Positions 2,339-54,506 of a DNA stretch of 64,000 nucleotides are shown one piece after another. Each line of letters begins with the position of its first letter. Position 1 is the first letter of the stretch. The notes beneath the pieces are model-generated. The model saw only the letters and a list, made by a program, of their open reading frames with translations, was not told the DNA's origin and did not search any database. This DNA comes from Haliclona indistincta (taxonomy: Eukaryota > Porifera > Demospongiae > Haplosclerida > Chalinidae): contig OZ024792.1 of assembly GCA_964017065.1 (NCBI GenBank), positions 4,955,754-5,019,753 of the forward strand, written 5' to 3'. Position numbers and translations under genes: made by a program.

Positions 2339-5569
<3,231 letters not shown>

Positions 5570-5845: not shown

Positions 5846-8429
5846 TCACATCTGCACAGAGCAAGATTTAGCAGAAGCTAGGGCTGTTGGAGGTCCTGCA
5901 TGTTGAGAGGAATAATGTAAACTATGATAACTAGTATGGATATGGAATGCTGGACTGCATTGTGTGTGCTCAATTGTACTTGACTCCTTACCTAAGTAAG
6001 ATACTAGTTTTTTGGTGAAGTCAGCTTCTGGTCGTACAACCGGCCAGTATGTTATTTTGGTCTTTAGCTTGCTTGGTACGCCATCTTGGTCCAGCACTAT
6101 GGGGATTATGCAGCTGGTCTGTGTGTGTTGCAGTCGATCCAATGCCCTTGCTAGCTCAGCCATACAGTATTCACTCTTTGAAAAATCTTTGGAGAACACG
6201 AATATGATCTTTCTGCTCTTATCGACTGCTTCATTGATGTTGTCCAGTATAGTTCTACCTGCTAGGAAGTCGACATGGTGCCAGCAGATACTGTAGGCAG
6301 GTTGGTGAGACTCCAGCGGCATCTTTACATGTGTGAGGACAAATTCTTCGGCTTCAGTATGGTAGCTTAGGAACACGTCCCACTTGAAACCCTTCACTGT
6401 GTACAACAAAGGTGTTGATTAGAATATGCATTTTCAATACAACTCACTTGGAGGCTCTTTAAGCCTTGCGTAAGAAACACCAAATCTTTTACTGGCTAGC
6501 ACAAGCCCAATAATACTTGCCACAGCCAATATAGCCAGTACAGCTACCACACTACCCGCAGAAATAGCTGCAACATTACCAGATCCTGAGCAATGAAAAT
6601 GAATCAATGAGATACAAATATTATGATAATGTTTAACCTTGTAATCCCAGTGTGATGTTCTGTGAGTGGTTTGTTCCTGGTATGAAGCAGCTGTACTCTC
6701 CTTGCATGTCTCTACTGAACAAGGGTATTTCCAATCGAGAAATCCATTTACAGTTGTCAGCGTCGAAGGTTGTTAGATTTTGAGAGACACCATCAATATT
6801 TTGCACTTCAATGCATGCTGTTCCATTGTTTCGACACCAGTGTGGTGGATGCGACCTGTCCACTCTTTCCGCTAGACAGGTTACAGTGACTAGCGATCCC
6901 TCAGAATGAACCGAATTATTGAATCGCTGAATCAGGAAGTCTTCTTTCGTGTTTATAGTGCAAGCTGTAAGAGATCAAGATATAATGGTTGTAAAAATGA
7001 AATGTAGTGCATCTTTACCGTCAATAGTCACTGTCCTTTCCACGCCGATAGTACTGTGTTCACATCTGTATAATCCGGCTCGCTGCCTCGTCAAGTTAGT
7101 TATTGTTAACTGTGAGATCCAAGCACATGTATTATTATCGTGTCGGAAAGTCTCCTCATATCCATTTCTAGCACCATTCACAAATTGGTATCTTCCATTC
7201 GTCCAATAGAACCATAACGGAGGTGCATGAAACATTGCTAGGTTATTGAATCGGCAGTGCAATGTGACATTGGCTCCTAGAGGATATTCAGTTCTGCTAC
7301 TACCAAGAACAGAGATGGTACCAGTCGCTTTTGCTGTGGTTTCACATTCTATATGACGCAAACAAACAATGATAGAAATCTTACACCAATACTTACTGTC
7401 AGCACGTAAAAAGTAGTGCATTGCATCTCTAAAGCAAGTCTTTCCCAGTGCATTGCTAGCACAGCACACATAGTATCCATTGTAGTCAGTAGACCACACG
7501 TTCACTAACCAACTGCGACGATTTTCACTCAGGTAAACTAAACTTGTAGGCAGCTCTTGCTGTCGAAACTCATCGATGGTTTCAAACGCAGTCCAATTGT
7601 ACAGTGCAGGAGGATTAGCATCAATTGGGCATGACAGTGTTAGGGGCTGTCCCACAACAGCTGAGGGTACTCTTGTCAGGTCAATTTGCCGTGGTTCATC
7701 TGTTGTTTACATATTAGAAAGGATGCTCTTAATAAACATGGAATGTAGAAAGTTTAGTAACACTACTTTGTATGGAGATCTAATCTACTAGGGTTAGTTG
7801 TTGCTAAGCACTCACATGTTATATTGAGTCTGTAATAGTATTCTGAAATAACTGAAGTGTTGGTCGTGCACCTCACCAAAGAGTTGTGATCTGCTATGGT
7901 TACATTTAGTTCAAGAAATTGTGTTTGCTGGGCAATTGGTCTAAAAATAGAATTGGGGAATTGTTGTGAATAGATAAACTCCACTCCAGTAGTGTTCTGT
8001 GAATGGTTTCCACATGGTATCGTGAGTGAATGACCAGAAACTCCCTCACAGATTATGATACCACTCCCTTGCTCCTCCATGCATTGTGGTGAAGGAGGGA
8101 TGGGCTTCTCCAAGTGTTCTGTAAGTGAATAAGTAAACTGGACATGCTTTATATAATAGCAGAGGGAGGTGCTATGGAACCCATGATATCCTCATTGTTG
8201 GGAGTCGGCTGGACTGGATTTAATACTACTGTCCTGCATACATTGTTACATTGCAATATACAGAGCTATTACATTTGTATAATATTATTATTTGCGCTTT
8301 ACAGCGAGTGCATACACAAAGATGTATGCTAGTACATTACTCCACACACTCTCAACACTTACCAGTTCTGCAGCAATTGGCTAAGAACAACAGCAATGTT
8401 AATACCGGTGCCGCAACTCCAGTCTTCAT
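5846..8429 (-). CDS. Ig-domain/TIR transmembrane receptor (sponge Ig-TIR family)
   Basis: Putative innate-immune receptor resembling IL-1R/TLR signalling proteins; sponges are known to have Ig-TIR proteins. The ATG at 8429 opens a signal peptide (MKTGVAAPVLTLLLFLANCC). Four exons each encode an Ig-like or degenerate Ig module: about 8113-7803 (LTIPC...SLVRC), 7700-7398 (LTLSCPID...GYYVCCAS), 7353-7018 (VTLHCRF...AGLYRCEH) and 6962-6640 (VTVTCLAE...GEYSCFI). The next exon (about 6585-6446) gives a TM helix (AISAGSVVAVLAILAVASII). The last exon (about 6396-5846) is a TIR domain: WDVFLSYH (box 1), the CIIPIVLDQDGVP region, and SEYCMAEL containing the conserved Glu. The stop is just after a short Ser/Cys tail. 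Many NxS/T sites occur in the Ig part. The gene is divergent from PNPO, 158 bp away. The number of canonical Ig folds (3 or 4) is uncertain. Confidence 0.85.
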
Positions 8430-18594: not shown

Positions 18595-21500
18595 ATGGAG
18601 ATGAAAGCGACCATACTGTTCGCCGTAGTGCTGCTACGGAGTGCTGGAGTGAATGCTGTCGCACCTGGCGACCAACAGAGCTCTTGTTTTAGTACAGAAT
18701 TGCCCACTTCTCCCGGTCATGGATTGATCAATGCTTACACGAGCACGCAGAGACCTCTGATGGATTCTTACTGGTACGATAGAGTGGTAGGAACAACCGG
18801 AGTGTGGGATTTCATAGAGGGAAATGTCGACGATAACGGAGTAAGTATGATATTACAATGATACTTTTGTGACTATCTACATGCTTTTCATCATCAGTGG
18901 AGACGAGGACAACTTGCATCATGTCGAGGTACTGTCGTATCTAGCAAATCCAACAACCCTGCTGAAAACAACTGGTTTGCAACTCAGTTCATCTCCAGGA
19001 GCACTGCTCAGGCTCCTACTCATGCCCTCCCCATCACAGTGAACGTATCACACACCTTCCTCTCGTGTACTCCCAACTTATTCAGACTGCACTACTACCC
19101 AAGTGCCTCTAATCCAGGGAGCAACTCAGGAACTAGTAACTACATACATATTGGAGATGTAGACACTAGTGATAATTCACAACAGACGTCAACCTTCAAT
19201 TTTAATTTAGCCTCTCAGTACAGTGGCTTCTATCTTGGCTTCCAAGATCAGGACTCGTGTGGTACTGTAGAGAGAGTGCGGGTGTATCGTACCATATGCC
19301 CCTCACGTACAGAGGGGTTGGTGATGTATCCTGAAACACCAACTGGTACTAGTGCTGTCTCCGTAACTCATCAGTGTATAGCTAATGCTGGAGTGAGTGG
19401 AGGTGGACTGATGTGTAATACTGATGGCTCATGGAGTGGTTCACCATCATGTAGCTGTGCATCAGGACATGTACTAAATGGAGGAAATTGTCAAGGTAAG
19501 TCCTTTGTTTAAATTGTAACAATAGTCTGTAATTCTACCCATTTGAAGCTATAGATAATTTTTACTATTGCTAGTATATCATACTACTGACTGCGGTACT
19601 TTCTTGAGCTCTAGGAGTTTACTGCAACCAGTGTTATGTTAGCCGCTCTGTACTGTTTGTATTCTCATTCTGTAAACAGAGAAGAATTACTTGTTGTATA
19701 TAGGTTATGGTTTATACAAACAGATCATCTGCTGTTGTTGGTCTTTCTTTGATACAATACTAAGAATAGTAAACTGCTTTACATATTGTAATAACGAATA
19801 ATTATGAGAACATCACAACTGGTAAAAACATATTTTACGAGCCATGTCTCAGGCAAGTGATTCTTACTAGCGGTGTGCCTTAATAAGATTATTATTTTGT
19901 CAACAGTCAAATTGTAATTTTAGTTTTGTAAAATATAAAATTGTAAAATTGTAATTTTAGTTTTGTAAAATAATATTGGGCTTCATTTGTACTATTACTA
20001 CTAGTTCCTATTTGTAGTGGTTTTGCTATTCTTGCACAAGTGTCAAGTGTCAAGTGTAGAGTATAAGGTAGCATGTACTCCTTTCTAACCTGGTGTTGAC
20101 CAAACATAGCCATGTACACCTACCTCAGCTCTGACCTCCACCTACATCATGCACTGTTGTCAGGCTTGTGTTTATGTTGCTAGTTCAAATAGAGTGGGTC
20201 AGGTGTTCTACCTTCTGTCAGATCAACATTTCTTGCCCACTTTTTCATTGAAGCCTCCTGTTGTTAGTCAGATAAACTCCTGATACCATATAGGCATGTT
20301 ATTGCAACTGATAATCTGACCATGCCTCTATCTCCTCCTCCCTCAGCTTGTACTGCTGGTACCTTTCAATCAGGTAGCTCTTGCCTGAGCTGCCCAGCAA
20401 ACACTGTGGGCACCAGTGTGGGAGTGGCAGTGTGTCCCTGTCAGGCTAACTTCTACAGAGCACCTTCAGACAGTCCATCTATGTCTTGCACTGGTACAGC
20501 ATCATAATGTGTATTGATAGCATGTACTGTTGTCCACTGCAGTACCTCCATCAAGTGTTCAGAACCTGCAAGCACCTGATAATGATCGTACTAACACCAG
20601 TATCACAATCCAGTGGACTACACCAGCCACTACTGGTGGTCGCAGTGATCTAGTCTATCAGATTAGCTATCGTAGAATAGGAACTGAACAATCCATCATG
20701 AAGAACACTACTCAGACTTCAGACCAGCTGACTGGACTGCAGCCATTATCAGAGTACACCATCATGGTGGTGTCAGCTAATGGAATCACAGAGGGTCTAC
20801 CTAATGTTGCTGCTGTCACTCTACAGGGCAGGACAGCCACATTATCAGCCAGTACAAGAGAAGGAGGTTGGTACCACTAATTTTCACCTTCTTCCATCTT
20901 TTTAATTTGTGCATTGCATCATAGTTCCAGGACCACTAGCAGATGTAGCTGTATTGGGTAGAAATGATACAATTGTTATAGTCTGGCGACCTCCTCAAAA
21001 CCCCAATGGAGAACTCTTAGGATACTCAATTCGATTTTATGAATTGGGAATGGTTGACCAAGCTAATAATGTGGACAAGGAAGCTAGTGAGTATTACCAT
21101 GTGCTCACTGATGCTGATGTGCCCAGCGGATCTAACATCCAAGTACAGGTGTGCTGAATCCTTCAATATTGGCTGTTAACCTAGTTATGTTACTTGTTGA
21201 TTTTGATTCAATTAGATTCGAGGTAGGACTGCTTTGGGTGGTGGAACATGGAGTATACCACAGCAGCGTATGTGATATTATGTAATCAAGTGTTTCAGCT
21301 AGCTATTGATATCTATTCCACAGCCAATTCAACAGTGCTATTGGCTTGCTCTGGCCCTTATCATGGTAAGGGTTGCTATTAGTGCTAATGTGTAATCGCT
21401 CTGTGTTGAATTGTGATTGTGGCGTGTTTGCAGTAGTTTAGACTGCTGCTAATGCAGCTATTACTTTAAGCGTGAGTTGTTCACTACACTGTGTGGGCTC

Positions 21501-21615
21501 CACTTTTGTCCATAAGGGACAAACACATAACTAAGTGATTCTGTTCCTTGTAGGCTTCTCGGTTGCAGTACTCATCATTTGTGCAGTGATTTCACTTGCC
21601 TTCTTCTTGCAGTAG
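18595..21615 (+). CDS. Eph-receptor-like ectodomain protein A, kinase-less, probable GPI anchor
   Basis: Signal peptide from ATG 18595 (MEMKATILFAVVLLRSAGVN) or ATG 18601. Exons 1-3 (to about 19494) encode an Eph-type ligand-binding jelly roll: ENNWFATQFISR, FLSCTPNLFRLHYYPSAS and GFYLGFQDQDSCGTVERVRV, then TICPSRTEGLVMYPET, the region linking the fold to the Cys-rich part of Eph receptors. A CCP-like piece (GLMCNTDGSWSGSPSCSC) follows, then the Cys-rich module (ACTAGTFQSGSSCLSCPANT...CPCQANFYRAP, about 20346-20490). FN3-1 is at about 20544-20868 and FN3-2 at about 20925-21267. Two small exons then finish with SGPYHGFSVAVLIICAVISL and AFFLQ-stop at 21615. A small-residue site plus a C-terminal hydrophobic stretch and no cytoplasmic tail is the layout of a GPI signal. 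No tyrosine kinase follows; gene B lies tail-to-tail 427 bp away. Confidence 0.8.
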
Positions 21616-22042
21616 AATATAATCAAGACCAACATTGTACAAAATGACAATACACAAATCAATTATTGTACAAATTGTGCAAATAATTTATTTTCTTTTT
21701 TACCCTTTTGTAAATTCAGTGAAGTTTATTTTACTCTGTGTATTTTTGAAGACAATGATGTTTTTAGATAATTAGCACCATAAACTAAGGTTACCATAGG
21801 GAATAAATAACATTTGTTATAGTGATTGTTATTGTGTACTTAGTGTGTAGCTCAGTTGCTTCACACCATTCTACAACAACAGGCCTGGTGTTTTCTGAGA
21901 ACACTAACATTGAAATTTTGTTGACAAAAAATGATTGCTATGATACACGATGAGTAAAAAATGAGACAGATGATGATGTTACTATCACAGGCAAGACACG
22001 GTTAGAAAAATACAAGTTTGCAGATCATCACGCATGTAGTCG
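21616..22042. other. Convergent 3' ends of Eph-like genes A and B
   Basis: 427 bp between two stop codons. AATAAA at 21802-21807 is the likely polyadenylation signal of gene A. No ORF or kinase-like exon is present. Confidence 0.6.
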
Positions 22043-22818
22043 TTAGGATTTAGTGTCATAGTAATTGCTCATCTCGTATCTCCTGCAAAAAGACAAAAAA
22101 TCACAAGATTATTAATACAACATTTAAATAGACTCACTTGGAGGTTGCTGTAAAGATGATCGACAAGAAAGGAAAAAATAGTATCAGTGCAGTATTATAA
22201 TCTCTACTTGTAAGTACCTGATGATCTCTTCCGCTGCCAGCAGCACAGTGAGACAGTGATGAGGACAACTACAATGATAGCTACTATTATTACGGCAATT
22301 ATGACTCCGACAGCAATCCAGATTGAGCTACTACCAGAGAGTGAGTCAGAAACTATAATTGCAGATTATAATGAAATTATAACTGAAGTATTTTACTAAC
22401 CATTAGGTACCACGGAACATGAAGGAGTTTCTGTAACTCTGATTGTTGTAGCATCAGCTTTACAAGAAGCTAGAGGATAAGGAGTTTTTGTAACATATAC
22501 AATGCTAGTACGTCCATCACACGATAATAATGGAGAGTGAGTGACTGTGGTTGCCACACAAGGTGAGCTTGGTGAAGGTACGAGTGAGGGACATGATGTG
22601 GTAATGAATGGAGGAGGTGAAGAACAAGTTGGCATAATGGGTGATGGAGTTTGAGTGACTATAATCGTTGTTGCAATATTTGCGCAAGAGCAGGCAGGAG
22701 AGGCTGTAATGGTGGTGGTAGTACCTGGACACTGAGAGGCAACAGGAGTCATCATGGCTACTGGCATTTGTGAGGTTAGTGTACAGGAGATGAAAGCGGC
22801 TCCTACAATAACAGTAGA

Positions 22819-22873
<55 letters not shown>

Positions 22874-25058
22874 AAATCATTGTTACAAAAGTACTACTAA
22901 CTTGATAGTGGTTGTGGCGTACTCCATTCACCTGCTCCAATCATCGTCCTACCACGAACCTATTAGGAAGACTAATAATTTCCTGACTAATAATTTTCAA
23001 CATGTAGTACCTGAACTTGCAGGTTGTTGCCATCTGGTAGATTGCTGGTAGTTAGTTGGCGGTAAAAGAGATTCACATCAACATTGATGATCTGAGCTTG
23101 TCCTATGTTACCATCAGAATACACTCTGATAATATAGCCAGTCAGTATGCCATTAGGAGACTGTGGAGCCTGCCAGATAACAGCACGATCAATCACTGCT
23201 ACACTTGCTGGAGGACCAGGTACTGCAAAATATTAGGTTCAGTCGGTGAGTCCAGTGCTTGTAGTGTACACACTAGTGGTACCAACCTCCTTCTGTTGTA
23301 CTGGCTGATAGTGTGGCTGTCCTGCTCTGTAGAGTGATAGCAGCAACATTGGGTAGACCCTCTGTGATTCCATTAGCTGACACCACCATGATGGTGTACT
23401 CTGATAATGGCTGCAGTCCAGTCAGCTGATCTGAAGTCTGAGTAGTGGTCTTCATGATGGATTGTTCAGATCCTATTCTACGATAGCTAATCTGATAGAC
23501 TAGATCACTGCGACCACCAGTAGTGACTGGTGCAGTCCACTGGATTGTGATACTGGTGTTAGTACGACCATTATCAGGTGCTTGCAGGTTCTGAACACTT
23601 GATGGAGGTACTGCAGTGGACAACAGTACATGCTATCAATACACATTATGATGCTGTACCAGTGCAAGACATAGATGGACTGTCTGTAGGTGCTCTGTAG
23701 AAGTTAGCCTGACAGGAACACTCTGCCACTCCCACACCAGTGCCAATAGTGTTTGCTGGGCAGCTCAGGCACGAGCTACCTGATTGATATTGACCAGCAG
23801 GGCAAGCTGAGGGAGGAGAGTTTGGACAGAATTTTGACAGAAACAATACAATGTTTGTGTTGTGGCATGTTATCATAGTAACTGACTAGACACCACAGAC
23901 CTAATTATTTTGTCAGTTAGCTATACCAGGAAAACACCAAACATCTACATGTATGTTGCAAGAACCAGTCTGTGTTAGTTTTGGCACAGGATGCATTTAA
24001 CTCATGTTACATTATCTGTATCAAAAGATGCCTCTGGCTAGGTTGTTTACAATGAACCTTTGAAAAAAAGATGTTGTTTACCATGCAGAGTAAACTAAAC
24101 CAATCACATTATCATGCATTGGGACTAGCAATACATTATCAATTTCACCTTGGCAATTTCCTCCATCTAGTACATGTCCTGATACACAGCTACATGATGG
24201 TGAACCAGTCCATGAGCCATCAGTATTACACATCAGTCCACCTCCACTCACTTCAGCATTAGCTATACACTGATGAGTGACAGAGACAGCACTAGTACCA
24301 GTTGGTGTTTCAGGATACATCACCAACCCCTCTGTACGTGAGGGGCATATGGTACGATACACCTGCACTCTCTCTACAGTACCACACGAGTCCTGATCTT
24401 GGAAGGCAAGATAGAAGCCACTGTACTGAGAGGCTAAATTAAAATTGAAGGTTGACACCTGCAGTGAATTAGTACTAGGGTCTACATCTCCAATATGTAT
24501 GTAGTTACTAATTCCTGAGCTGCTCCCTGGATTAGAGGCACTTGGGTAGTAATGCAGTCTGAATAAGTTGGGAGTACACGAGAGGAAGGTGTGTGATACG
24601 TTCACTGTGATGGGGAGGGCATAATCAGGAGTCTGAGCAGTGCTCCTGGAGATGAACTGAGTTGCAAACCAGTTGTTTTCAGCAGGGTTGTTGGATCTTG
24701 TAGCTCCGACGGTAGTTCGACATGATGCAATTTGTCCTCGTCTCCACTGATGATGAAAAGCATGTAGATAGTCACAAATGTATCATTGTAAATATCATAC
24801 ACTTACTCCTTTATTGTCAGCATTTCCCTCTATGAAAGCCCACACTCCGGTTGATCCTACCACTCTATCGTACCAGTAAGAATCCATCAGAGGTCTCTGC
24901 GTGCTCGTGTAAGCACCGACCAATCCATGACCGGGAGAAGAGGGGAATTGTGTAGTAAGACAAGTGCTCTGTTGGTCGCCAGGTGCGACAGCATTCACTC
25001 CAGCACTCAGTAGGTGCAGGATAGCAAACACGAGGATAAACGCCTTGTAGTACTCCAT
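22043..25058 (-). CDS. Eph-receptor-like protein B: ectodomain, Thr/Pro/Cys stalk, TM, short tail, no kinase
   Basis: ATG 25058 (MEYYKAFILVFAILHLLSAG) gives a signal peptide. The Eph-type ligand-binding domain spans about 25010-24160 (FLSCTPNLFRLHYYPSAS, GFYLAFQDQDSCGTVERVQV). The Cys-rich module follows (about 23810-23665), then FN3-1 (about 23610-23290), FN3-2 (about 23222-23010) and its last strand (GRTMIGAGEWSTPQ, about 22968-22903). A stalk exon (about 22767-22405) has TIIVTQTPSP, IVYVTKTPYP and TIRVTETPS units with regularly spaced Cys. TM is at about 22352-22215 (SSSIWIAVGVIIAVIIVAII), then CCWQRKRSS. Two small exons finish the tail as ATSKRYEMSNYYDTKS, stop at 22043. The tail is about 25 residues with three Tyr. 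No kinase exons exist before gene A. It is very close to A in the N-terminal half. Confidence 0.8.
22821..22870. repeat. (AG)n microsatellite in gene B intron
   Basis: About 50 bp of AG dinucleotides in the intron between the stalk exon and the last FN3 strand exon. On the minus strand it reads (CT)n. Confidence 0.95.
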
Positions 25059-25224
25059 TCTCAAAAAAATTGTAGTTCTGCAGCTCTGTCGCGAAATGCG
25101 CACTTTTATAGCGGAAGTTACTTACTAATCACGTGATACCCAGACTGCATACTAAAAAAATATTATCAATACATGTAGTAGCAATAAAAAAATATTAAAA
25201 TCACTTCCCTGAGTTAATGATATG

Positions 25225-25430
25225 ATGAAAACAATGGCACATCAGTGTGGGCGAAACTTCTGAAGTTTGCAATCATGTGATAGAAATAATTTCTTTGCCT
25301 GCAAAATTTTTGAGATTCATAATCACACTATTATGTGTACTATCTATAATCTGTATGTGGTACTGAATCTCACATTCATTGTTTGATGAAAGAAGTGAAT
25401 GTACAGAGAGATTTTGTCTGTGCAATAATC
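25225..25430 (-). pseudogene. Relic of the CUB-encoding 3' end of a C-type Eph-like paralogue
   Basis: The minus strand near 25281-25225 reads YHMIANFRSFAHTDVPLF. This aligns with gene C's terminal exon (CNYLVANFDNFAHTDVRFLY) through the shared ANF..FAHTDV. Further on (25385-25412, plus strand GATGAAAGAAGTGAATGTAC) it resembles 26752-26780 in the CUB-1 exon of gene C (GATGAGTGGAAATGGATGTA). Order and orientation match gene C, but the reading frame is broken and exons are shortened. I infer a fourth, decayed family member between B and C. Confidence 0.6.
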
Positions 25431-25499
25431 ATTTGATACAGATTATGCTTGCTTATTATCATTGCTCTGCCTACTTCTCTTTATCCAGATCTTGACTAC

Positions 25500-25762
25500 C
25501 ATGGGGAGACACCACCAAGTCACCCTCTCTACTGTGTCCACCTGGTCTTGAACCATATGTAGCTATTGCTGAGCTAGTTGACAAGGTACAGTATTGTATA
25601 CACAGAGGTCAATGTGTCACTGCTGGAATCTGCAGGTGTTTGAACAGCGTTCTCAAGTCAGCATGCAGCGTCGCACACAGCTTGGTGTGACAGCTGTACC
25701 AGCTACCTCACTGCAGATACACGCACTGAGAGCACGAGGCAGTATCGATCCATCATCAGGTA
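25500..25762 (+). other. Two exon-like open segments of unknown origin
   Basis: The plus-strand frame TKSPSLLCPPGLEPYVAIAE (25516 on) ends at AAG|gtacag. A second segment (25637-25761, VFEQRSQVSMQRRTQLGVTA and onward) is bounded by ctgcag| and |gtataa. Frames join in phase, but no start, further exons or recognisable domain were found. It could be a remnant of another gene. The rest of 25059-26260 shows nothing else coding. Confidence 0.3.
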
Positions 25763-26260
25763 TAACGCACTACTGTATTGCTACATCACTTCCTCACTCT
25801 CCTTGTAGGATACTCTAAACTGATTGGGTACTTATACCTCTCTTCTAAAATAGTGTTTTTGCTGATGATCAGGTGCAACACTGTTCTACTGATGTTCTAC
25901 TCTATCACATACTGCTATCAAACTGTTTAGTACTTGATCATGTGATACCCTGTATAAGAACAGAATTTTAAATGTAGCTGAATGGTGAATAAACCTGCTG
26001 TAAGCCGTACAAATTATTTGCTCACAGTAAAAATTTTTGTGTACGATCATATTTTTGTGTGTACAATGCATCGAATGTTCCCATTGGATAAACAAATTTT
26101 TCAGTGTGAACACAAAAATTATATTACGTTTGCTATAGTCTGAGTGAAATAGAAAAATAATATACAATAGCAGTCAAATAAGACATTGTTCTACTATCAC
26201 ATCATAACGCAAAATTTCAAAACAAATTGTCAATCGAAAGTGAAACAAACGACATACATC

Positions 26261-29200
26261 CTATACGCAATTTCCGTTTCTTGATAGCTCTTTTCCATTA
26301 GCACATTTATCTCTCCAGACTGCAGCAAATCCTCTCAATCCTGGTACTTTGACAGTGTATCTAATGTCAAACAGAAAGTCTTCTACGTGAAGAACTTTTT
26401 GGGCATCCTCAGCATTGCAAATGGTAGCAATAGGTCCACGATGTGTGAGCACCTCAATCATTCCTTGGGTGCAGTTTTTCAAATCAGTGTAAAGAAATCG
26501 CACATCTGTGTGTGCGAAATTATCGAAGTTTGCAACCAAGTAATTGCAGGTGTGTGGAGTAGTTCTAGTAAATGGTGAGGGGAATCCTGTCGAGGAAAAC
26601 CTTGATTTGGTGACTAATGCAGAGCAATCTTCACCTAAAATATTGATATCAAAGTAATAACAAAGTTATGTGTTAAGATATTCACTTACTCCGTATTGTT
26701 TTTATTGATTTGAATGTGGCGTTGAATCCAGTATTGTTTGCTTGTCTGCTTGATGAGTGGAAATGGATGTACAGAGAGTTTGTGGAGGAGCTGATAGATG
26801 AAGGTACTCTAGTGCCGCAATACCTTCCCACTAGCACAGAATCTGAACCGTCTCCGTCTCTAATTTCAAGATATGATCCAGAGCAATTTCTGGTGTGTTC
26901 GATATCAAATGTTCCATGGAAAGTGAGTTCAACTGCTCTGTTTTTGTTTGGAAGATTAATTGTCCAGAAATAGTCGGCATTTCTAGGGTAAGCTTGCGAT
27001 GGATGAGATGGAGTCTTGATATTTCCAACTGCAGTTGTTATCTCTTCACGAATAGTGATAGGTTCGCTGGGAGAAGGGCAAGATGGTGTTGGTGTGAGTG
27101 TCTCAGTAACCACTACCGTGCGTGGTTCTGTAATTGTTTCAGTCTGAGTTGCTGTGATTGTACTTGTGATAAAGGTGGGTACTTCTATCATGCTGCAGCT
27201 GGGGACTGGACCAGGTGCTAGAGTGCGTGTTACAGTAACGGGTGATGGAGTACGAGTTACAGTAACTGGTGGTAAAGTGCGAGTTACAGTAACAGGGGGC
27301 GGAGTTTGAGTTACAGTAACTGGTGGTAGAGTGCGAGTAACAGTTACAGTAACAGGAGGCGGAGTTTGAGTTACAGTAACTGGTGGTAGAGTGCGAGTAA
27401 CAGTAACAGGGAGTGGAGTCTGAGTTACGGTAACTGGTGGTAGAGTGCGAGTAACAGTGACTGTGACTATTTCTGGCTCTTGAAGATCAGGATTAGGTAT
27501 ATCTGTAGTATGCAAAAGATAATTGGAACTACGTTAATTTGGTAGACTCACTTATTGATAGTTCCACGAGTCGCTGAGGTAGAGTACTCCATTCACCTGG
27601 TCCAACTTTTGTATTTCCACGTACCTAATGCAATAATGCATTAGCATATGTATTCCATATTAATAACAATAGTCACCTGAACTAGTATATCACCAGCACC
27701 ATCTGGTATATCACTACTGGTTACTTGGTAGTGCAAGGGCTTCACACCAACATTGATGATCTGAGCTTGTCCTACATTGCCATCGCGATACACTCTGATA
27801 GTGTAGCCAGTCAGGTCACCATTAGGAGATTGTGGAGGTTCCCAGATAGCAACTTGGTTAACCACTGCTACACTTGCGGGAGGACCAGAAACTATGAGAT
27901 AGGATAAATTCAAATTAATATTAATTGAATATTAATAGTCACTAACCTCCTTCTGTTGTTCCGTCTATTATCAAGACTGTTCTTTTTGATAGAGTAATTG
28001 CAGCAATATCTTCCATCTCTTCTGTAATGTCGTTTGATGACACCACCGTGATCTTGTACACAGATAATGGCTGCAATCCAGTCAACTGATATGAGGTCTG
28101 AGTAGTATTTCTTATTATTGGGTCTTCACTTCCCACCCTACGGTAGCTAATCCGATAGAATATATCATCTCGACCAGTCGTGACTGGTATGCCCCACTCA
28201 ATGGTGATAGTTGTATTAGAACGGTGAGTTACTCGCAAGTTCTGAACTTTTGTTGGAGGTACTGTAGTGGACAATATTACAAGCTATCTATACACATTAT
28301 GATGCTGTACCAGTGCAAGGATCAGATGGACTGTCTGAAGGTGCTCTGTAGTAGTTAGCCTGACAGGGACACACTGCCACTCCACCACTGGTGCCCACAG
28401 TGTTTGCTGGGCAGATCAGGCAAGAGCTACCTGATTGAAAGGTATGAGCAGGGCAAGCTGAGGGGGACGGAATATACAATCTCATAAATTATTTTGTGCT
28501 ATTATTATTACCTTCGCAATTTCCTCTATTTAGTATGTGTCCTGGTACACAGCTACATGATGGTGAACCACTCCATGAGCCATCAGTATGACACACCAGT
28601 CCACCTCCACTCACTTCAGCATTAGCTTTACACTGATGAGTTACGGAGACAGCACTATTACCAGCTGGTGTCAGAGGATATGTCACCAATCCCTCCGTAC
28701 GTGAGGGGCATATGGTGCAATACGCCTGCATTCTCTGGATAATACCGCACGAGTCCTGATCTTGGAAGCCAAGATAGAAGCCACTGTACTGAGAAGTTAA
28801 ATTGAATGTGAAGGTTGACATCTGTAGTGATTTTGAATCAGTATCGACATCTCCAATACTAATGTAGTTGTTAGTTCCTGAGCTGCTCCCTGGATCAGAG
28901 GCACTCGGGTAGTAGTGCAGTCTGAATCTCTTAGGAGTACAAGAGAGGAAGCTGTATGTTACATTCACTATGATGGGCAGAGGGTAGGTGGGATTCGGAG
29001 CAAAGCTCTTGGAGATGAACTGAGTTGCAAACCAGTTATCTTCAGCAGGATTCCTGCTGTATCGAGATACAATCGTATTACGACAAAGTGCTATTTGTCC
29101 TCGTCTCCACTAAAAAGAAGAAGCGAATAAATAATATTATTCACTTTATAATGCACTTACTCCATTCCTGCCGTCATTTCCTTGGATAAAATCCCACACT

Positions 29201-29406
29201 CCGGTCGATCCTACCAGTCTAGTGTACCAGTACGAATCCATCAGCGGTCTTTGCGTGCTCGTGTAGGCTCCGACCAACCCATGCCCCGGATCAGTAGGTA
29301 GCTCTCTCTTGGTACACTGGTTCTGTTGGTCATCAGGTGCACTAGCCGTCACTAGTCCAGCAGCACCTAAGAGAGCGAGCGTTAAAATGATTGCCTTCAG
29401 CTCCAT
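26261..29406 (-). CDS. Eph-receptor-like protein C: ectodomain, Thr/Pro repeat stalk, two CUB domains, probably secreted
   Basis: ATG 29406 (MELKAIILTLALLGAAGLVT) gives a signal peptide. Ligand-binding domain covers about 29340-28500 (FLSCTPKRFRLHYYPSAS, GFYLGFQDQDSCGIIQRMQA). The Cys-rich module (ACPAHTFQSGSSCLICPANT) is at about 28460-28310, FN3-1 at about 28260-27945, FN3-2 at about 27893-27675, last strand GNTKVGPGEWST about 27625-27570. The next exon (27515-26690) has a Thr/Pro stalk of PVTVTRTLP/PVTVTQTPP repeats, then a CUB domain (YFWTINLPNKNRAVELTFHG, GSYLEIRDGDG, LYIHFHSSS). A second CUB-like module follows in two pieces (about 26637-26261: STGFPSPF, CNYLVANFDNFAHTD, FAAVWRDKC) and the protein stops without a TM or GPI-like end. 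It is the most diverged of the three paralogues except in FN3-2, where it is close to B. Confidence 0.78.
27222..27480. repeat. Coding VNTR in the gene C stalk
   Basis: About eight imperfect tandem units of 27-36 bp encode PVTVT(R/Q)T(L/P)P. Units are nearly identical in DNA (GTTACAGTAACTGGTGGTA and close variants), so copy number is likely to vary between individuals. The Thr/Pro content predicts an O-glycosylated rigid stalk. Confidence 0.85.
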
Positions 29407-40097: not shown

Positions 40098-41863
40098 ATG
40101 GATTCACTGCAAGCCACCACATGCAATTCAATGCAATCTCATTCTGAAGACAGTAAGTTTTCTCATTGTGCCTAGCTTATTTTTACTATAATCTCTCTCT
40201 ATCTCTCATAGGTATGGACGAGGTTTTCTACGATCCATTGAGACACTCTGAAGGATACCATAGTGAACTACTTTATGCCTCCTCGTCTGCTCCTAACTCT
40301 CCACTAGGTCCCGCCAAGCATCCCACCAGTCTCCACTGGTTTCGAATCGGTTGCCTACGACTGCACGACAACCCAGCTCTGGTTACGTCGCTGCAACAAG
40401 CAGGCACACAATTTCGCGGGATCTTTATTCTGGATCCATGGTTTACAAGCGGGGAACATAAATTCGGCGTCAACCGATGGAGATTCCTCTTAGAATGTCT
40501 CCATGATCTCGATCAGCAGCTGCAAGCTCTTAATCTTCAGCTGTGTGTTGTCCAAGGTCCCACTGCTGTTGTTCTATCTGAGGTCTGTGCTGAATGGAAC
40601 GTCACTCATCTCACCTACCAAGTCAGTCCAGAGCCACATAGTATGATCGAAGAGAGTACAGTGGATCAGATGGCATGCGATGGCAACATTAAAGTCGAGA
40701 AATTCTACTCGCACACTTTATTCGAGCCTGCCTACATGCTGTCCTTGAGCAATTCCAAGCGTGTCGTCACGACAAAAGAATTCAAAGCCTTGGTCCCCAA
40801 ACTTGGAAGCCCGCCAGATCCACTCCCTGCTCCCACTGCTAAATCGCTTGCAGTTGATGACATCTATTTCCAGCACAACTCAGCTAATTATCGCATACCA
40901 TCACTTGAAAATCTTGGCTTCTCTGGTGCTTCTCTGTACACCAACTATTGGATCGGTGGGGAAAAAGAAGCCCTCAAGAGATTACCGGTGTACTCAAATT
41001 CGCGGCGCCATCCACCCAACAATATTGTTGACGTTCTGTTCGACAAAACATCTCTGAGCCCTTACATCAGATTTGGTTGTGTCTCTGTACGGAGACTGTG
41101 GCGTTACATATGGGATGAAGCGCATAAAGATGAAACCTTGCAACCACTGGCCAGGGAGCTCTCGGAGAAGCTACTCCAACGTGACTTTTACATCTTAGTT
41201 TCAACCCAGATCCCAAATTTTGATCGTGTAGAAGAGAACGCTGTATGCTTGCCTCTACCCTGGCATACAGATGACGATCTGCTTCACCTTTGGCAGACAG
41301 CACAAACAGGCTACCCTTGGATAGACGCAGGAATCAGACAAATGCGTCAGGAAGGTTGGACCCATCACATTGTAAGGTAAAGTAACCAATTAGAGTATAA
41401 GCTCACATTATTAACTGTGTATCTTCCTGTTAGGGAGTCTATCGCTGCTTTCCTGACACGTGGTGATCTGTGGCTGAGTTGGGAACATGGAAAGAACACT
41501 TTTGAAGCATTCATGCTTGATTTTGAGCCCAGTGTCAGCTGCGCCTGTTGGATGCACAGCTCTTGCTCAGCCTTTCTGACCGGACCAGTAGAGCATTACT
41601 GTCCTGTCACTTATGGACAGAAGATTGACCCTCAAGGAAAATATGTCAAAGCCTTTGTCCCAGAGGTCAGAAATTTTCCAGACGAGTATCTCTACTGTCC
41701 TTGGACAGCACCACTCGAGGTCCAAAAGGAGTGTGGATGCGTCATCGGAGTAGACTATCCCAATCCGATAGTGAGTCACTTAACAGCTGGTATCATCTGT
41801 GTAGAAAGATTGAAGACAACCTTCTCTGCACTTCATTCATCATCAAGACAACGTGTTAATTAA
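40098..41863 (+). CDS. Cryptochrome / photolyase family flavoprotein
   Basis: FAD-binding blue-light receptor or photolyase-fold protein. Exon 1 (40098-40152) encodes MDSLQATTCNSMQSHSEDS; the frame joins MDEVFYDPLRH in exon 2 (40212-41376); exon 3 is 41434-41863. The N-terminal alpha/beta domain starts LHWFRIGCLRLHDNPAL. The FAD domain has TSLSPYIRFGCVSVRRLWRY, QTGYPWIDAGIRQM, EGWTHHIVRESIAAFLTRGD and LWLSWEHGKNTFEAF, then the adenine/flavin region. The tryptophan-triad positions appear kept (LPW, LSW, CWM). The loop normally reading DxDWSxNAGxW here reads DFEPSVSCACW, so the residue beside flavin N5 seems to be Ser and the usual Trp is Pro. The C-terminal extension is short. Class (animal CRY versus 6-4 photolyase) needs a tree. 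AATAAA follows at 41889-41894. Confidence 0.88.
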
Positions 41864-48997: not shown

Positions 48998-51900
48998 TTA
49001 TATTTTTATTCGAATAGGAGGTAGTCCATTGTCTTGTCTTGCAATTTTGAAACATTTAATTGTATCATCCATTTCCTCTTCCGTTTCCTCATACATGTAC
49101 AGTCTCGATAAGTGTAAAGATGAGTTCAGCTTAAGTGAGTCAAGAATGCGAGAGATGCTTTCAATGCGATAGCAAGTGAAAGAAAGATCGAGTGTTTCTA
49201 AAGAACAAAATGGCAATGCTTGAGTAGCACATTCCATATCATCATCTATCATACTTATGCAACTAATGTTCAAGTGTAGCAAGGTTGTGTTGTGTTTAAG
49301 CCCATGAAAAGTATGTGAAATGATTGAATTTGCACTTGTACCGTCATGGTCATTTTTTTGAAACATCAAGATGAGTAAGTGACTTGTTGACCTGAAGCAT
49401 TTTAGTGAGAGACCTAGCAGTGTCTGTGTCTGCAGCTGTTATACCTGTATTGCTTAGATTCAAGTTGACCAGAGTAGTATTGCTTAGAAGACCTTCAAAG
49501 ATGCAGTGAGCTCTAGAATCACATAATACTTCATTTTCTGAAAGATCAAGATGAGTAAGTGACTTATTGACCTGAAGCATTTTAGTGAGAGACCTAGCAG
49601 TGTCTGGGTCTGCAGCTGTTATACCTGTATTGCTTAGATTCAAGTTGACCAGAGTAGTATTGCTTTGGAGAACTTCAAAGACGTAGTGAGCTCCAGAATC
49701 ACATAATATTTCATTTTCTGAAAGATCAAGATGAGTAAGTGACTTGTTGACCTGAAGCATTTTAGTGAGAGACCTAGCAGTGTCTGGGTCTGCAGCTGTT
49801 ATACTTGTATTGCTTAGATTCAAGTTGACCAGACTCTTATTGTGCTGTAGACTTTTGAAAATACTAAGACCTTCTGACATTGAGAAAAATCTCGTTTTTG
49901 AAAGATCAAGATGAGTAAGTGACTGATTTACTTGAAGCATTTGACTCAATGATCTGGAAATGTCTGGACCTGTGTTTGAATATCGATTATTGTTGCTTAG
50001 AGACAAGTGAGTAAGAGTGGAATTGTGTTGGAGACCATCAAAGACACAGCTACCTTTCAAGAGTAAAGCGTTCCCTGAAAGATCTAGATGTGTCAGTGTC
50101 TTGTTCACTTGAAACATTTTACTGAGAGACGTATCAGTGTCTGAATCCGTACTTCTTAATCCTGTTGTGCTTAGATTCAAGTTAACCAGAGTATTATTGT
50201 GTTGAAGACCTTCAAAGACGCAGTGGGATCCTGAATCTATGAATGAGTTCTCTGAAAGATCAAGATGTGTAAGTGATTTGTTCACTTGAAGCATTTCAGT
50301 GAAAGACCTTGCAGTGTCTGGATCATAACATGGAAATCCTGAGTTGCGTAGAATCAAATGAGTAAGAGTAGTGTTGTGTTGAAGACCTGCCACGAAATGG
50401 TAAAATATTCTCACTGATTCAACAGGCCATGCTGTCAATGTGTTCTGTGAAAGTTCAAGATATTGTAGTGACTTGTTCACCTGAAGCATTTTGATGAGAG
50501 CTAAGATATTCTTTTCAGTGTATCGCATATTAAGTAGACTGAGTTTAGTAAGGGAGGAGTTTGTTTGTAGTGCTGTTGCGATGTGCAGCAACCGGTCAAA
50601 GTGGATGCAACCATTAGTTATACGAACTTCACTAATGGCAGGAGACAGTTTAAGGTGAGATGCTATAAGTTTTACTCCTGACCCAGTAATGGATGTTTCA
50701 AATACATTTTCTCCAACTTTATAATACGGTCCATAATCATCGTCGTCACTATCAGTAATCTGCTGTACTGTAAATACCAGTTTACGTGAGAAATTACCAG
50801 CTGTGGGAAGTTCTTCAACAGGATATTTTGAGAGTTCGGTTAGCAATAACTTCAATAGGTAGTAGTCATTAATCCCAACAACAGAAAGGTGCACAGGTGG
50901 CACATTGGCACTATGACACGGCATGGACAGTAGTGAGGTTATGAAGTAGCCAATTGCTATGTAATCTGATGGATTATGTATTTTATAGTTCAATATCATG
51001 TTGGTTGAAAATTCAGGATCAACTAGTTGGCATAGAGAAGGTTGTTGTGTTTCAAAGAAACAGTGTAGCAAAGGTAGGATCTTCTCTAGACTTGAAATAT
51101 CATGCTGATAAGAAGAAATGAATTCTTGTATCGCTGGATTGTTCAGTTTCGTGAAGCCGCAATAGTAAAGAAATACAGCTTGAAAACGAGAGCTTTCAAA
51201 AAATTCCTTGAACACTTTTATTTGTTCACTTGAGGCCATCTGGGAAATATGATAGGCAGCAAGAAGCTCTTGAACTGAGAGATGAAGAAAGTTGTATGAG
51301 AGAAATTTGCTAGTAAGTGTAAGTCCCTGAACAGCCTGGAGTAGCCCTAATGAAGGGAGATCATTTGGCAGGTGAGACGATTGCAAATCCTTGGAGTAGA
51401 ATATAACTTTGTCCTGCATTACTCCATTGTAAGCTAATACACTGAGGTTACTCAGTGAAGACTTAAGGTCATCAGGAAGGTCATCAAGTGAGGATAATTC
51501 AGATAAACTCGTGTCTGGCTCATGTGTTGCATGTTCACGGACTATGCTGCAGAGTACGAGAAGACAGAAAAGCTCATGGCGTGTGGTAGGTAGGGCACCC
51601 TTCAGTGTCAGGAATGCATGCACTAGTATTGCTGAATGTAGAGGTATATAACAGTATCCTTCTATAACAGGGTGCTCTTTAAGATGCCGAAGAAGTTTCT
51701 GAACTTGAGTGCCATCGTCACCTATAGCCTTCTCAATATACTCACGGATCTGGTGTGGGGTGAATCCCATAATCTCTACTCGTCGATCAGCTATGTTGAG
51801 TAGGTTTCCTGATGCCACTGGTCGAGAGGTGATAACAACATTACTTTGCTGAAGAGACAGCTTATGTGGTTGTCGAATGATTGTGGAAACAAGTGAGTCA

Positions 51901-52945
51901 CTCATTAGGCTGTGTGGAAACTCATCCCATCCATCGAATATAAAAAGCACTCTTGCTCCATGTAAAGCTTGAATTTTAGAGACGATCATATGTTGAGATT
52001 GAGACGAGGTAGTATCAGATGGTAGAATGTCAGCCAAGGTCAAAGCTTTCTGAATGGCTTCATCTCGCAAGTAAGCTAGGACTACGATGTCAAATCTCGC
52101 TAACCAAAACGCACCTTGTGCCCATTGGTGGCAAAGGTGTAGAGCAAGTGTGCTCTTCCCTCCTCCAGGGGCTCCTTCAATAAGACATACTCTACCTTGT
52201 GGTTGTGGCGGTGGTGGTAGTACAACTAAAGGTTGTGCTGGAAGTGGAAAGAGGTCATGGAGATCAACGGAGGATTTCTTGTGATCAAGAATTGTTTCAA
52301 TCTTTCCCTGCTGTGCTAGTCTGATCATTTCCTCCTCTGGTCCCCCACGTCGTAGCCCTTTAGCTCCGATCATTGCTAGTTGTATGAACTCACATTTTGG
52401 GAGGTGGGCCCAATGTTGGGAGCTCGAGGTGTGGCTTTGAGAGAGTGAATTGTACAATTCTTCAAGGTAGGAAGCATAAGAAGCGAGAGTATCAGGATGA
52501 GATGGATTGGATAGAGAATCTAACAATAAATTTTTAGAGTTATTTAGTGTCGTTAAATGAGACAAGCGTACTTACCATCCTCAGTGTCTGAAGAGCTGCT
52601 GCTATTAGATGACTTTGTCAGCATTTTTTGGACTTTTAATCCAATATCAAACTTCCCACATTTTCTAAACACTCTGCACAATCGCTTGTACGTGGCTTTT
52701 GCTCCTCGTTCCTTTTTCCACTTTCTTAGCATCGCTATCTTCTGTGGGAGTACAGAATGAGGGGCAGATCCTAGTATTTCGTGCTCTTCTGCTTCTGTTA
52801 GACCGAGGGATGGCGATATCTCTCTCCAATCTGTAACCAAACGAGCAATTTCAGCCAAATGTTCCTCAGAGCATAGCTTGTCCCAGCCAGATGGTTGCTG
52901 CGCTGAGTCATCTTCATGATGATCTTCTGCTTGTCTTTCTGCCAT
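48998..52945 (-). CDS. NLR-type receptor: DEATH-NACHT-LRR, frameshifted near the 3' end
   Basis: Cytosolic pattern-recognition receptor of the sponge NLR family. Exon 1 (52945-52570, MAERQAEDHHEDDSAQQPSG) encodes a DEATH fold (LAEIARLVTDWREISPSLGL, LRKWKKERGAKATYKRLCRV). Donor g|gtaagt; exon 2 starts about 52519 in phase. The NACHT domain has Walker A GAPGGGKSTLALHLCHQW (about 52185) and Walker B ARVLFIFDGWDEF (about 51960), then TSRPVASGNL and the GFTPHQIREYIEKA helical part. LRRs run from about 50600 downward with the NKSLTHLDLSEN/TTLVNLNLSNTGI pattern. At about 49358-49364 a run of seven A ends the frame (DVSKK-stop at 49350). In the next frame LRR-like sequence continues without a break (NDHDGTSANS, LKHNTTLLHLNISC, LETLDLSF) to a stop at 48998 overlapping an AATAAA. 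Either a sequencing indel or a real truncation. DEATH-NACHT-LRR is the architecture reported for sponge NLRs. Confidence 0.88.
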
Positions 52946-53018
52946 GACGCCGGGCTTGCCAGCTCTGGACGATTTGAGCCTCCAAAAGTGAGCCTCGAAA
53001 ATTAAAAGTGGGGCGATA

Positions 53019-54506
53019 CAGTCGAACCGCAAGCGTCCAAAAATACACGATTTTATTTGCCACGGAAGTGGGCGGTACCCTCCACAGTCGAGGAGAAAAC
53101 ATGAACGCCAGTCTCTGCAGGAAACTTCGCTTTTATATCGGTTGTATGCTGACCTGTTTGTTCAGAATATGGATTCCAGCTTTTGAACGTCGGTTCTTTT
53201 GTTATGTTAAAGCTGGGGCCAGTTACATTTTCCAGAGAAGATGTATGACGATCACAACTCGGCCGTGCTCAAGATTCATCGAGTTCACTAGCCGCTTTTA
53301 GAGTGGCTTACTCCTAGACGGTAAGACAGACACCTCTAATAAGATACTTTTTGTGTACACTAGAGTGTTAGCCATAGTGTAGGGGTATTCCTGTCTACGT
53401 AGAGATGGAAAAACGAAAGTGTCCCACTGTTTTGTATAGTTATTTGACGTCGCCATTATGGTCTAACCACAGTGGGTATATAGTTTGCAGGAAAAAGTAT
53501 GTTTATGATTATTCTAATCAGCAATAATAGTTACTATAGAATCAGGGATAGAATAGTAGTCATGAATGAATCAGCCAGGGAAAGTAATGGATAGAAAAAA
53601 TCAACAAAGGAAATAGTTGATCTTACGATAGAAATAGCATTTATGTGTACCAGCAAAATGTCTATGTCATCATTGATAAGCATGTCTGTCACTATCTCTG
53701 TCTGTATCTCTTCTTCCTGTTCACAGTCTCCTTATTCTTGCTCTCCACACTAGCTGTGTGCGCCATGCCTCTGTGTCTGTAACACAGCATCCTCATTTTC
53801 ACCGCCTTTTTCCATGTAGGAATTTTTTCATGTTGTGAACCAAGGTTTCGCTTTTCCTACAAAGACAGCTATCACCAGGTATGCTACTGGTACTGTATTG
53901 CCCTATGTATTGCTGCACATAATGCTGTGAGGCCTTTGAAGTGATAATACCTTGCTTGTTGTCTTCCACACAGAAATCAAGAAACACAAGATCTTTCAGG
54001 GTGGTACTGTGATGTCACCTTTGCCCAGGCAGTTGTAGCTGCCTGACTCTGAGAACTTGCCATAATTATTGTTCTTCGTAACAGTATTAGTAGTATTAAA
54101 GCACTGCTATATTCATGTTATGATAAAAATACCTCTGGCTGGGTAAGTTATGGCAAGACAGCACTAATTTTGCAACATAAAACAGATAGGTGGCTTCTCT
54201 TATTGATGTGCTATAGAATGAATCCACAAGGTTGCAAAAACGAAAGTGTCCCACCTTTTAGCTTTTAATACATTTTGCACAAAAACTAGAGAATTACTGG
54301 AAGGATTTTAGTCGGATAAACATCAAATTATGTAGAAAAATACTACGTTTGGGTGCTCGCAAATTTCAAAGCAATATCGTTTACGCGCGCAAAGATATGA
54401 CCGTTTGAAAACTAAAGGCGGCAAACTTTGTCTTGGTGTGCGTTAATTAGAGTGGAAATTGTAACTCTGGATTTCTACGTATTTCGGGACGCTTGCGGTT
54501 CGACTG
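53019..54506. mobile_element. TIR transposon 1, 1.49 kb, GATA target duplication
   Basis: The ends read CAGTCGAACCGCAAGCGTCC (53019 on) and its exact complement (to 54506), with similarity for about 10 bp more. GATA flanks both sides (53015-53018 and 54507-54510). Inside, an AAAAACGAAAGTGTCCCAC block occurs twice in direct orientation (about 53408 and 54238). No intact transposase was recognised, so it is probably non-autonomous. The left end is 74 bp from the NLR start codon. Confidence 0.8.

Follow-up and report, generated by a model that had tools for sequence, protein, structure and literature searches.

The kinase is what defines Eph receptors, and genes that combine an Eph ectodomain with no kinase raise the question of what such an ectodomain does by itself. 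Three genes of this sort, termed here A, B, and C, are clustered in a 64-kb stretch of the 144-Mb genome of the sponge Haliclona indistincta (C10:4955754-5019753; the whole stretch is referred to as the window, and window positions are counted from its first letter). Gene A occupies 18595-21615 on the + strand and is predicted to encode 564 amino acids, while B (25058-22043; 725 predicted amino acids) and C (29406-26261; 911 predicted amino acids) are both on the - strand. The three-gene cluster that the first-pass annotation of this DNA had placed at 18595..29406 was recovered, as A starts at 18595, C starts at 29406, and B lies between them. A and B are convergent with a gap of 0.43 kb, C is upstream of B with 1.2 kb between the stop of the former and the start of the latter, and all of the introns are shorter than 1 kb. 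The gene models are predictions, in which the exons were read from the sequence and its splice sites with GT-AG introns; the frames are open with canonical splice sites and ends, and no broken frame of the kind that marks pseudogenes was found. We tentatively favor the view that A, B, and C encode ligand-capturing recognition proteins, in which the ligand-binding domain (LBD) is diversifying under selection and the tail decides whether the protein is bound to the cell or secreted.

Each of the three genes displays the Eph order of LBD, Cys-rich module, FN3, and FN3. The Pfam profile Ephrin_lbd (PF01404) matched A, B, and C with E-values of 9.3e-9, 1.7e-8, and 1.6e-6, respectively, all of which were over the Pfam cut-off, albeit barely in the case of C (28.8 vs. 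27 bits). The corresponding values for the fn3 profile were 6.3e-18, 4.5e-18, and 1.8e-14, with two stretches detected in A, two in B, and one in C, of which the second FN3 was recognized via the alignment to B. Ephrin_rec_like matched A only, and weakly (0.019, below the cut-off). The ectodomain of B was found to be collinear with the solved EphA4 ectodomain, including the Cys-rich module (residues 102-527; E-value of 3.6e-44), and the top 11 of the 50 structure-sequence matches of B were Eph chains. Thus, the domain order claimed by the first-pass annotation holds in the three genes by Ephrin_lbd and fn3, as well as by the EphA4 match for B, and the PF01404 and fn3 searches it had proposed as a check returned matches above the cut-off in A, B, and C, so that the LBD cannot be regarded as absent. 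The structure prediction it had proposed alongside was of mixed value: the AlphaFold model of exon 2 was of low confidence (pLDDT of 57.8 and pTM of 0.52), while the 50 PDB matches listed by Foldseek for this low-confidence model (the best 50 of 1,504 at an E-value of 10) were all Eph structures. The search of a protein database with B, in which the 7,993 best word-sharing candidates were scored, retrieved a single Eph from an eel and nothing from a sponge. Altogether, A, B, and C almost certainly possess the anatomy of an Eph ectodomain.

To search for kinases, we built a hidden Markov model (HMM) from ten kinase frames found in this genome and applied it to the window, L009-L017, and the stretches read later, with L009 as the positive control. 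L009 (C2:12.84 Mb) is the sole LBD locus with kinase exons behind the LBD. It is a full canonical Eph, comprising LBD, Cys-rich module, FN3, FN3, a transmembrane (TM) helix, a juxtamembrane segment with YVDP, kinase, and SAM, in which the kinase motifs VAIK, HR+DLAARN, and DFG were recognized by eye and SAM was detected with an E-value of 4.8e-14. In tblastn, the juxtamembrane, kinase, and SAM pieces of L009 each found L009 itself with E-values of 2e-42 to 4e-55 but found no counterpart in the window, in L010-L015, L017, and L030-L032, or at C1:2.25 Mb (L016, L028, and L029). Neither HMM nor tblastn detected a kinase, juxtamembrane, or SAM exon behind A, B, or C, or behind the seven further genes D-J introduced below. 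Besides L009, the kinase HMM matched three pieces in the window (4419-5107, +) and, weakly, two in L031 (E-values of 0.0014 and 0.0027), which are located upstream of the C10 cluster and encoded on the other strand; none of these is behind an LBD. The pieces at 4419-5107 were considered as a part of gene A and rejected, given their distance of 13 kb on the 5' side of A and the higher score of the best piece with Pkinase than with the tyrosine kinase profile. A kinase exon hidden near A-C was likewise rejected, as both searches were negative with the L009 control positive. When 150 candidates were scored against the Eph kinase piece, the runner-up to L009 was 47% identical, and thus no second Eph-type kinase was seen. 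These results agree with the first-pass annotation in that no kinase or SAM follows A-C and the gaps of 0.43 and 1.2 kb are free of kinase, and the search it had suggested for canonical Eph kinases in the same genome yielded one, L009.

The three genes are predicted to end in different ways, as the first-pass annotation had supposed in proposing alternative membrane and secreted ends. A terminates with a hydrophobic segment, CSGPYHGFSVAVLIICAVISLAFFLQ, immediately followed by the stop without any tail (exons 7-8, 21324-21365 and 21554-21615, +; splice model; hydropathy of 2.73 over 19 residues), which could be a glycosylphosphatidylinositol (GPI) signal, as judged by eye, or a minimal membrane anchor. 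In B, a Ser/Thr/Pro/Cys-rich stalk (exon 7, 22401..22802, -; splice model), of which 48% is Ser/Thr/Pro, precedes a single TM helix, IAVGVIIAVIIVAIIVVVL, and the start of the tail (exon 8, 22218..22352, -; hydropathy of 3.67). The rest of the short cytoplasmic tail carries three tyrosines and no kinase (exons 9-10, 22138-22147 and 22043-22082, -; KRYEMSNYYDTKS before the stop), with the splicing, including a 10-base exon, being predicted. C possesses a stalk of TVTVTQTP repeats (57% Ser/Thr/Pro) and a CUB domain with an E-value of 1.4e-24 (exon 7, 26690..27502, -), followed by a CUB-like domain and the stop without TM (exon 8, 26261..26634, -; recognized by eye, no Pfam match). The signal peptide is the sole hydrophobic segment of C by hydropathy, and C is predicted to be secreted. 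The EphA2_TM profile gave only matches below the cut-off. The terminal CUB-like domain of C had 12 further matches elsewhere in the genome.

The PF01404 search of the genome recovered 12 LBD exons, and exon 2 of B as the query extended the number to at least 16 LBD loci. Kinase and SAM were found in one of the 16 (L009), and the remaining 15 are kinase-less over the stretches read, which extend at least ~9 kb behind each LBD. Genes D, E, F, and G (C10:6.69-6.71 Mb) have CUB ends like that of C. H (C2:12.603) comprises LBD, Cys-rich module, one FN3, TM, and a tail with KIRAMKSEASY; I (C2:12.572) has TM and a 43-residue tail; J (C8:9.54) has TM and Calx-beta-like repeats recognized by eye. The tail of I (L011 7708-7995, -) contains VRYTDV, an ITIM-like motif, although one this short may occur by chance. 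The remaining five kinase-less loci are related to the canonical gene and lie at C1:2.25, C1:2.18, C6:3.64 (two loci), and C6:8.24. The LBD of the last of these is 63% identical, and the segments behind it resemble Ig, FN3, and vWD domains as judged by eye. By HMM, the four loci beyond the twelve of PF01404 had no kinase, bar one 21-residue remnant.

Exons 2-4 of A and B and those of the CUB-ended genes D-G, 1.7 Mb away, were 91.8-98.6% identical in the best blastn matches, and exon 5 of B was 99% identical to that of G. On the other hand, the DNA search found no second genome copy of exons 7-8 of B (stalk and TM); common words were skipped in this search, so that the result means no near copy rather than rarity. 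Judging from the predicted genes, one ectodomain cassette is carrying different tails. In the LBD phylogeny, A, B, and D-G grouped together to the exclusion of C (87/98). As C and D-G have CUB ends, the ends of A and B look derived. The window group was united with H weakly (80/69), while I and J (100/99) and the canonical group (99/96) received high support. The deep relationships are unsure, because the forks within the A/B/D-G group are open and the eel sequence is long-branched. The LBDs of the window group were 28-30% identical to that of the canonical Eph, L009.

We examined selection on the ectodomain with codon models (MGK; kappa taken from a grid), testing omega against 1. The whole-LBD runs included A, B, D, E, and F; G was omitted for its exon 1 being 10 bases short, and C and H for being more divergent. 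The parts of exon 2, exon 3, and the first FN3 (FN3-1) were analyzed with A, B, D, E, F, and G, and exon 5 with B, D, E, F, and G, A being saturated. The pairwise ratio of nonsynonymous to synonymous changes per site was 1.36 for the portion of the LBD encoded by exon 2 and 0.38 for FN3-1. For the LBD without the leader (five genes, 190 codons), omega was estimated as 2.48 with a 2dlnL of 10.5, and the 2dlnL was 5.9-10.7 in the five runs in each of which one gene was left out. The LBD part of exon 2 from six genes gave an omega of 1.93 (2dlnL of 4.1). Counted as minimum steps, the nonsynonymous/synonymous changes amounted to 79.8/14.2 in the LBD (five genes) vs. 17/14 in FN3-1 (six genes; Fisher p of 0.001), and the comparison of the LBD with the Cys-rich module plus FN3-1 gave a p of 0.003. 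No stop interrupts exons 1-5 in A, B, D, E, or F. Of the parts analyzed, the LBD alone deviates clearly from an omega of 1, and we regard excess amino-acid change in the LBD as fairly firm on the basis of these codon comparisons. The enrichment of variable sites in the loops was evaluated on three loop sets, for which the borders of the DE and JK loops followed PMC2832735, and the GH border and the EphA4 numbering were set by eye. Variable sites occupied 18 of the 35 positions in DE, GH, and JK and 21 of the 97 elsewhere (p of 0.0012), the only set with significance, which is suggestive of the change being focused on the ephrin face. Clustered copies with excess change in the binding domain, as in a recognition family, were found in five genes, the comparison being between copies and not between individuals.

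How these genes relate to what has been described can be stated against four known systems. Canonical Eph receptor tyrosine kinases (EphA4 and L009) share the order of LBD, Cys-rich module, FN3, and FN3 with A-C, whereas A-C have no juxtamembrane, kinase, or SAM, bear other tails, and are ~30% identical to L009 in the LBD. Kinase-less Eph splice isoforms of vertebrates likewise consist of the Eph ectodomain without kinase, but, as far as PMC6993872 describes them, they are spliced from a kinase gene, whereas A-C are separate genes with their own stops and CUB, TM, or GPI-like ends. A-C as kinase-less isoforms of an Eph gene were rejected, as no kinase exon was found in the same gene and each has its own stop. 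The sponge models of Krishnan et al. 2019 (PMC6485061) comprise 100 Eph-LBD models, of which 15 are full length, and the domain-poor ones, which like A-C have an Eph LBD without the full domain set, are called partial or fragmentary; the available portion of that paper presents no genomic ends, CUB or GPI-like Eph tails, or selection test. The same source mentions a kinase-less protein of the choanoflagellate Salpingoeca urceolata with an Eph LBD and fn3, which is a single model and a fragment according to its authors, whereas here we deal with a multigene family. We found no kinase-less sponge Eph gene family described in the open-licence PMC full texts (main texts, without supplements), as far as these were available. 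Accounting for the parts of the literature at hand, LBD-without-kinase models of sponges are already in print as partial sequences, and what is new here is genes with their own ends and a signal of selection. Demosponges were reported to have three LBD clades but one kinase clade (PMC6485061), a mismatch on which the kinase-less genes may bear.

If A-C are ligand-capturing recognition proteins, a protein ligand would be bound via the LBD face, the members with TM or GPI-type ends (A, B, H, I, and J) would tether or co-present it, and the CUB-ended members (C-G) would capture it outside the cell. The signal, if any, would be indirect, via partners or short tyrosine-bearing tails. A changing ligand, which may be a microbe, another individual, or a rapidly evolving protein of the ephrin type, is favored over one fixed ephrin because of the excess amino-acid change in the LBD. 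Several observations weigh against such an interpretation. Omega for exon 1 alone was 1.19 and not significant, that for FN3-1 (0.52, 2dlnL of 3.2) was not significantly below 1 at the 5% level, and those for the Cys-rich parts (0.79 and 0.98) and FN3-2 (0.93) were indistinguishable from 1, which also fits weak constraint. The LBD estimate is based on five genes with low dS and could be distorted by gene conversion. The loop borders were partly set by eye, and the p-value was 0.089 for DE and JK (10 of 23 positions variable vs. 29 of 109 elsewhere) and 0.051 for the interface of PMC6485061 (13 of 30 vs. 26 of 102). Moreover, conservation of the loops is generally lower among Ephs (PMC6485061), and variability in them alone is hence not special. 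Two LBD disulphides including the C105-C115 pair have been described for Ephs (PMC6485061), while the genes in the window keep only one cysteine (C57 of exon 2) in the region of that pair in alignments read by eye. Every intron of the gene models was read from splice sites alone. Finally, the ephrin profile detected none in the genome even at an E-value of 10, albeit the profile was silent in every control genome and the search is thus uninformative.

The competing explanation that comes closest assumes decoys or co-receptors of the sponge's own ephrins, in which secreted and anchored ectodomains damp or shape the signalling via the single kinase-bearing Eph. The entire Eph ectodomain is retained, secreted and anchored ends are both predicted, a canonical Eph with kinase and SAM resides in the same genome, ephrins of sponges have been published (PMC6485061; PMC10176882, in the latter for Spongilla via PF00812 on a proteome), and kinase-less isoforms with altered activity exist in vertebrates (PMC6993872). 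Nevertheless, we consider this explanation rather unlikely, as the LBDs are so divergent from that of the canonical Eph, an omega above 1 is unexpected for the decoy of one fixed ligand, and no ephrin was found, although by the uninformative search above. Adhesion, in which the ectodomains bind each other or the matrix through FN3s and CUBs with no ephrin involved, would suit the FN3 and CUB domains, the TM and GPI-like ends, the Calx-beta-like repeats in J, and the Ig-like and vWD-like segments in one LBD gene (by eye); the excess change resides in the LBD and not in FN3 (the CUB and stalk exons were outside the selection runs), and we regard adhesion as improbable.

Relaxed selection after the loss of the kinase could also raise dN/dS, leaving functionless, decaying copies. 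The omega near 1 in the Cys-rich parts and FN3-2, the lack of significant constraint on FN3-1, and the damaged-looking members (the retroelement-like insert at C1:2.25 Mb, exon 1 of G, the kinase remnant at C6:3.636 Mb, and the CUB fragments) are in line with decay. However, relaxation alone gives an omega of ~1, and that of the LBD is significantly greater; the exons of A-C are open with canonical splice sites and ends, and the stop-free exons 1-5 extend to D, E, and F. Decay is hence slightly less probable than adhesion in our view. A-C as plain pseudogenes were rejected, since their frames are open and omega exceeds 1 in the LBD; constraint elsewhere may be weak. We give very little credence to an annotation illusion, namely ordinary Eph kinases with a distant or trans-spliced kinase exon: the models are predictions from splice sites and some loci were read only ~9 kb behind the LBD, but each of A-C has a stop and an end of its own, A and B converge at a distance of 0.43 kb, the introns of A-C are below 1 kb, and the runner-up to L009 among the 150 candidates scored was 47% identical. 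Based on these sequence comparisons, diversifying recognition would rank first, decoys of own ephrins second, adhesion third, and decaying copies fourth. The roles that the first-pass annotation had envisaged, namely ephrin decoys, adhesion molecules, or self-recognition molecules, are putative.

The exons of the ectodomain are predicted as follows. In A (+), exon 1 (18595..18840) encodes the signal peptide and the first part of the LBD (ATG, a hydrophobic leader, and a GTAAGT donor; alignable to exon 1 of B and C), and exon 2 (18898..19495) the remaining LBD, with FRLHYYPSAS and GFYLGFQDQDSCG, and the start of the Cys-rich module (Ephrin_lbd E-value of 1.0e-7 in six-frame translation; AG/GT sites). 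The Cys-rich module continues in exon 3 (20347..20493; splice model, with the Ephrin_rec_like match mentioned above), the first FN3 is in exon 4 (20543..20866; fn3 at residues 335-417), and the second in exons 5-6 (20925-21148 and 21216-21267; splice model and fn3 profile). In B (-), the signal peptide and first LBD part are in exon 1 (24807..25058; splice model), the remaining LBD and the Cys-rich start in exon 2 (24149..24746; Ephrin_lbd E-value of 1.5e-7 and the EphA4 match), and the Cys-rich module and two FN3s in exons 3-6 (23660-23806, 23287-23610, 23011-23222, and 22902-22959; splice model, Pfam, and EphA4). The counterparts in C (-) are exon 1 (29161..29406; splice model), exon 2 (28512..29109; Ephrin_lbd E-value of 2.9e-5), and exons 3-6 for the Cys-rich module and FN3s (28311-28457, 27947-28261, 27677-27891, and 27597-27624). 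The donor of exon 6 of C is ambiguous and constitutes the sole doubtful junction in the models: an end homologous to that of exon 6 of B was rejected, as there is no in-frame GT donor, and CAG|GTGAAT was taken instead. Between C and B, blastn found a 49-base remnant of a last exon of the gene-C type (25233..25281, -; 79.6% identical).

Some members elsewhere in the genome bear peculiar structures. Exon 1 of G (L014 1684-1982) shows a net deficit of 10 bases relative to B, which reflects a frameshift or a different start or exon. Both copies of the canonical gene at C6:3.64 retain partial juxtamembrane pieces of 20-21 residues, and one of them, the truncated copy at C6:3.636 Mb (L048/L049), carries a kinase fragment of 21 residues with 95% identity, looking as if it had been caught in the middle of losing its kinase. 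At C1:2.25 Mb (L016), a gypsy-like element, recognized by eye, lies between the LBD and Cys-rich exons of a copy of the canonical Eph, and the Cys-rich and FN3 exons are triplicated; the same triplication was seen at C1:2.18 Mb, where no gypsy-like element was noticed. CUB fragments are scattered through the clusters, and three tandem terminal CUB-like domains of the C type were found at C2:12370006-12372665, outside the LBD loci found and 0.2 Mb from H and I. Dense arrays of tyrosine-kinase exons at C5:10.66-10.88 and 12.17-12.33 Mb, 35-49% identical to the Eph kinase piece, suggest a large tandem expansion of receptor tyrosine kinases.

In the window itself, a TIR domain (E-value of 1.8e-16) adjoins Ig domains at 5846-8191 (-), 10 kb from the Eph-like cluster, and the two are probably parts of one Ig-TIR receptor gene. 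An NLR-type gene with NACHT (2.8e-20) and leucine-rich repeats resides at 49350-53161 (-), with a Death-domain exon just upstream. There are therefore immune-type genes on both sides of the cluster at distances of 10-20 kb. Open frames resembling cryptochrome/photolyase were noticed by eye at 40157-41863 (+).

In the contiguous assembly, domain-poor Eph models of sponges appear as separate genes, each with an end of its own, and the counts of sponge 'Eph receptor' genes would need to be re-read if the proteins are made. The most far-reaching proposal, that the Eph ectodomain freed from its kinase forms a germline-diversified repertoire for self/non-self or microbe recognition, with ~15 LBD genes, interchangeable GPI-type, TM, and secreted CUB tails, and a positively selected binding face beside a single Eph kinase, is doubtful, a shade more so than ephrin decoys. 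In any case, control of ephrins and self/non-self recognition become directly testable alternatives. Provided that these proteins are indeed produced, an animal of an early-branching lineage would employ the Eph ectodomain as an independent recognition module.

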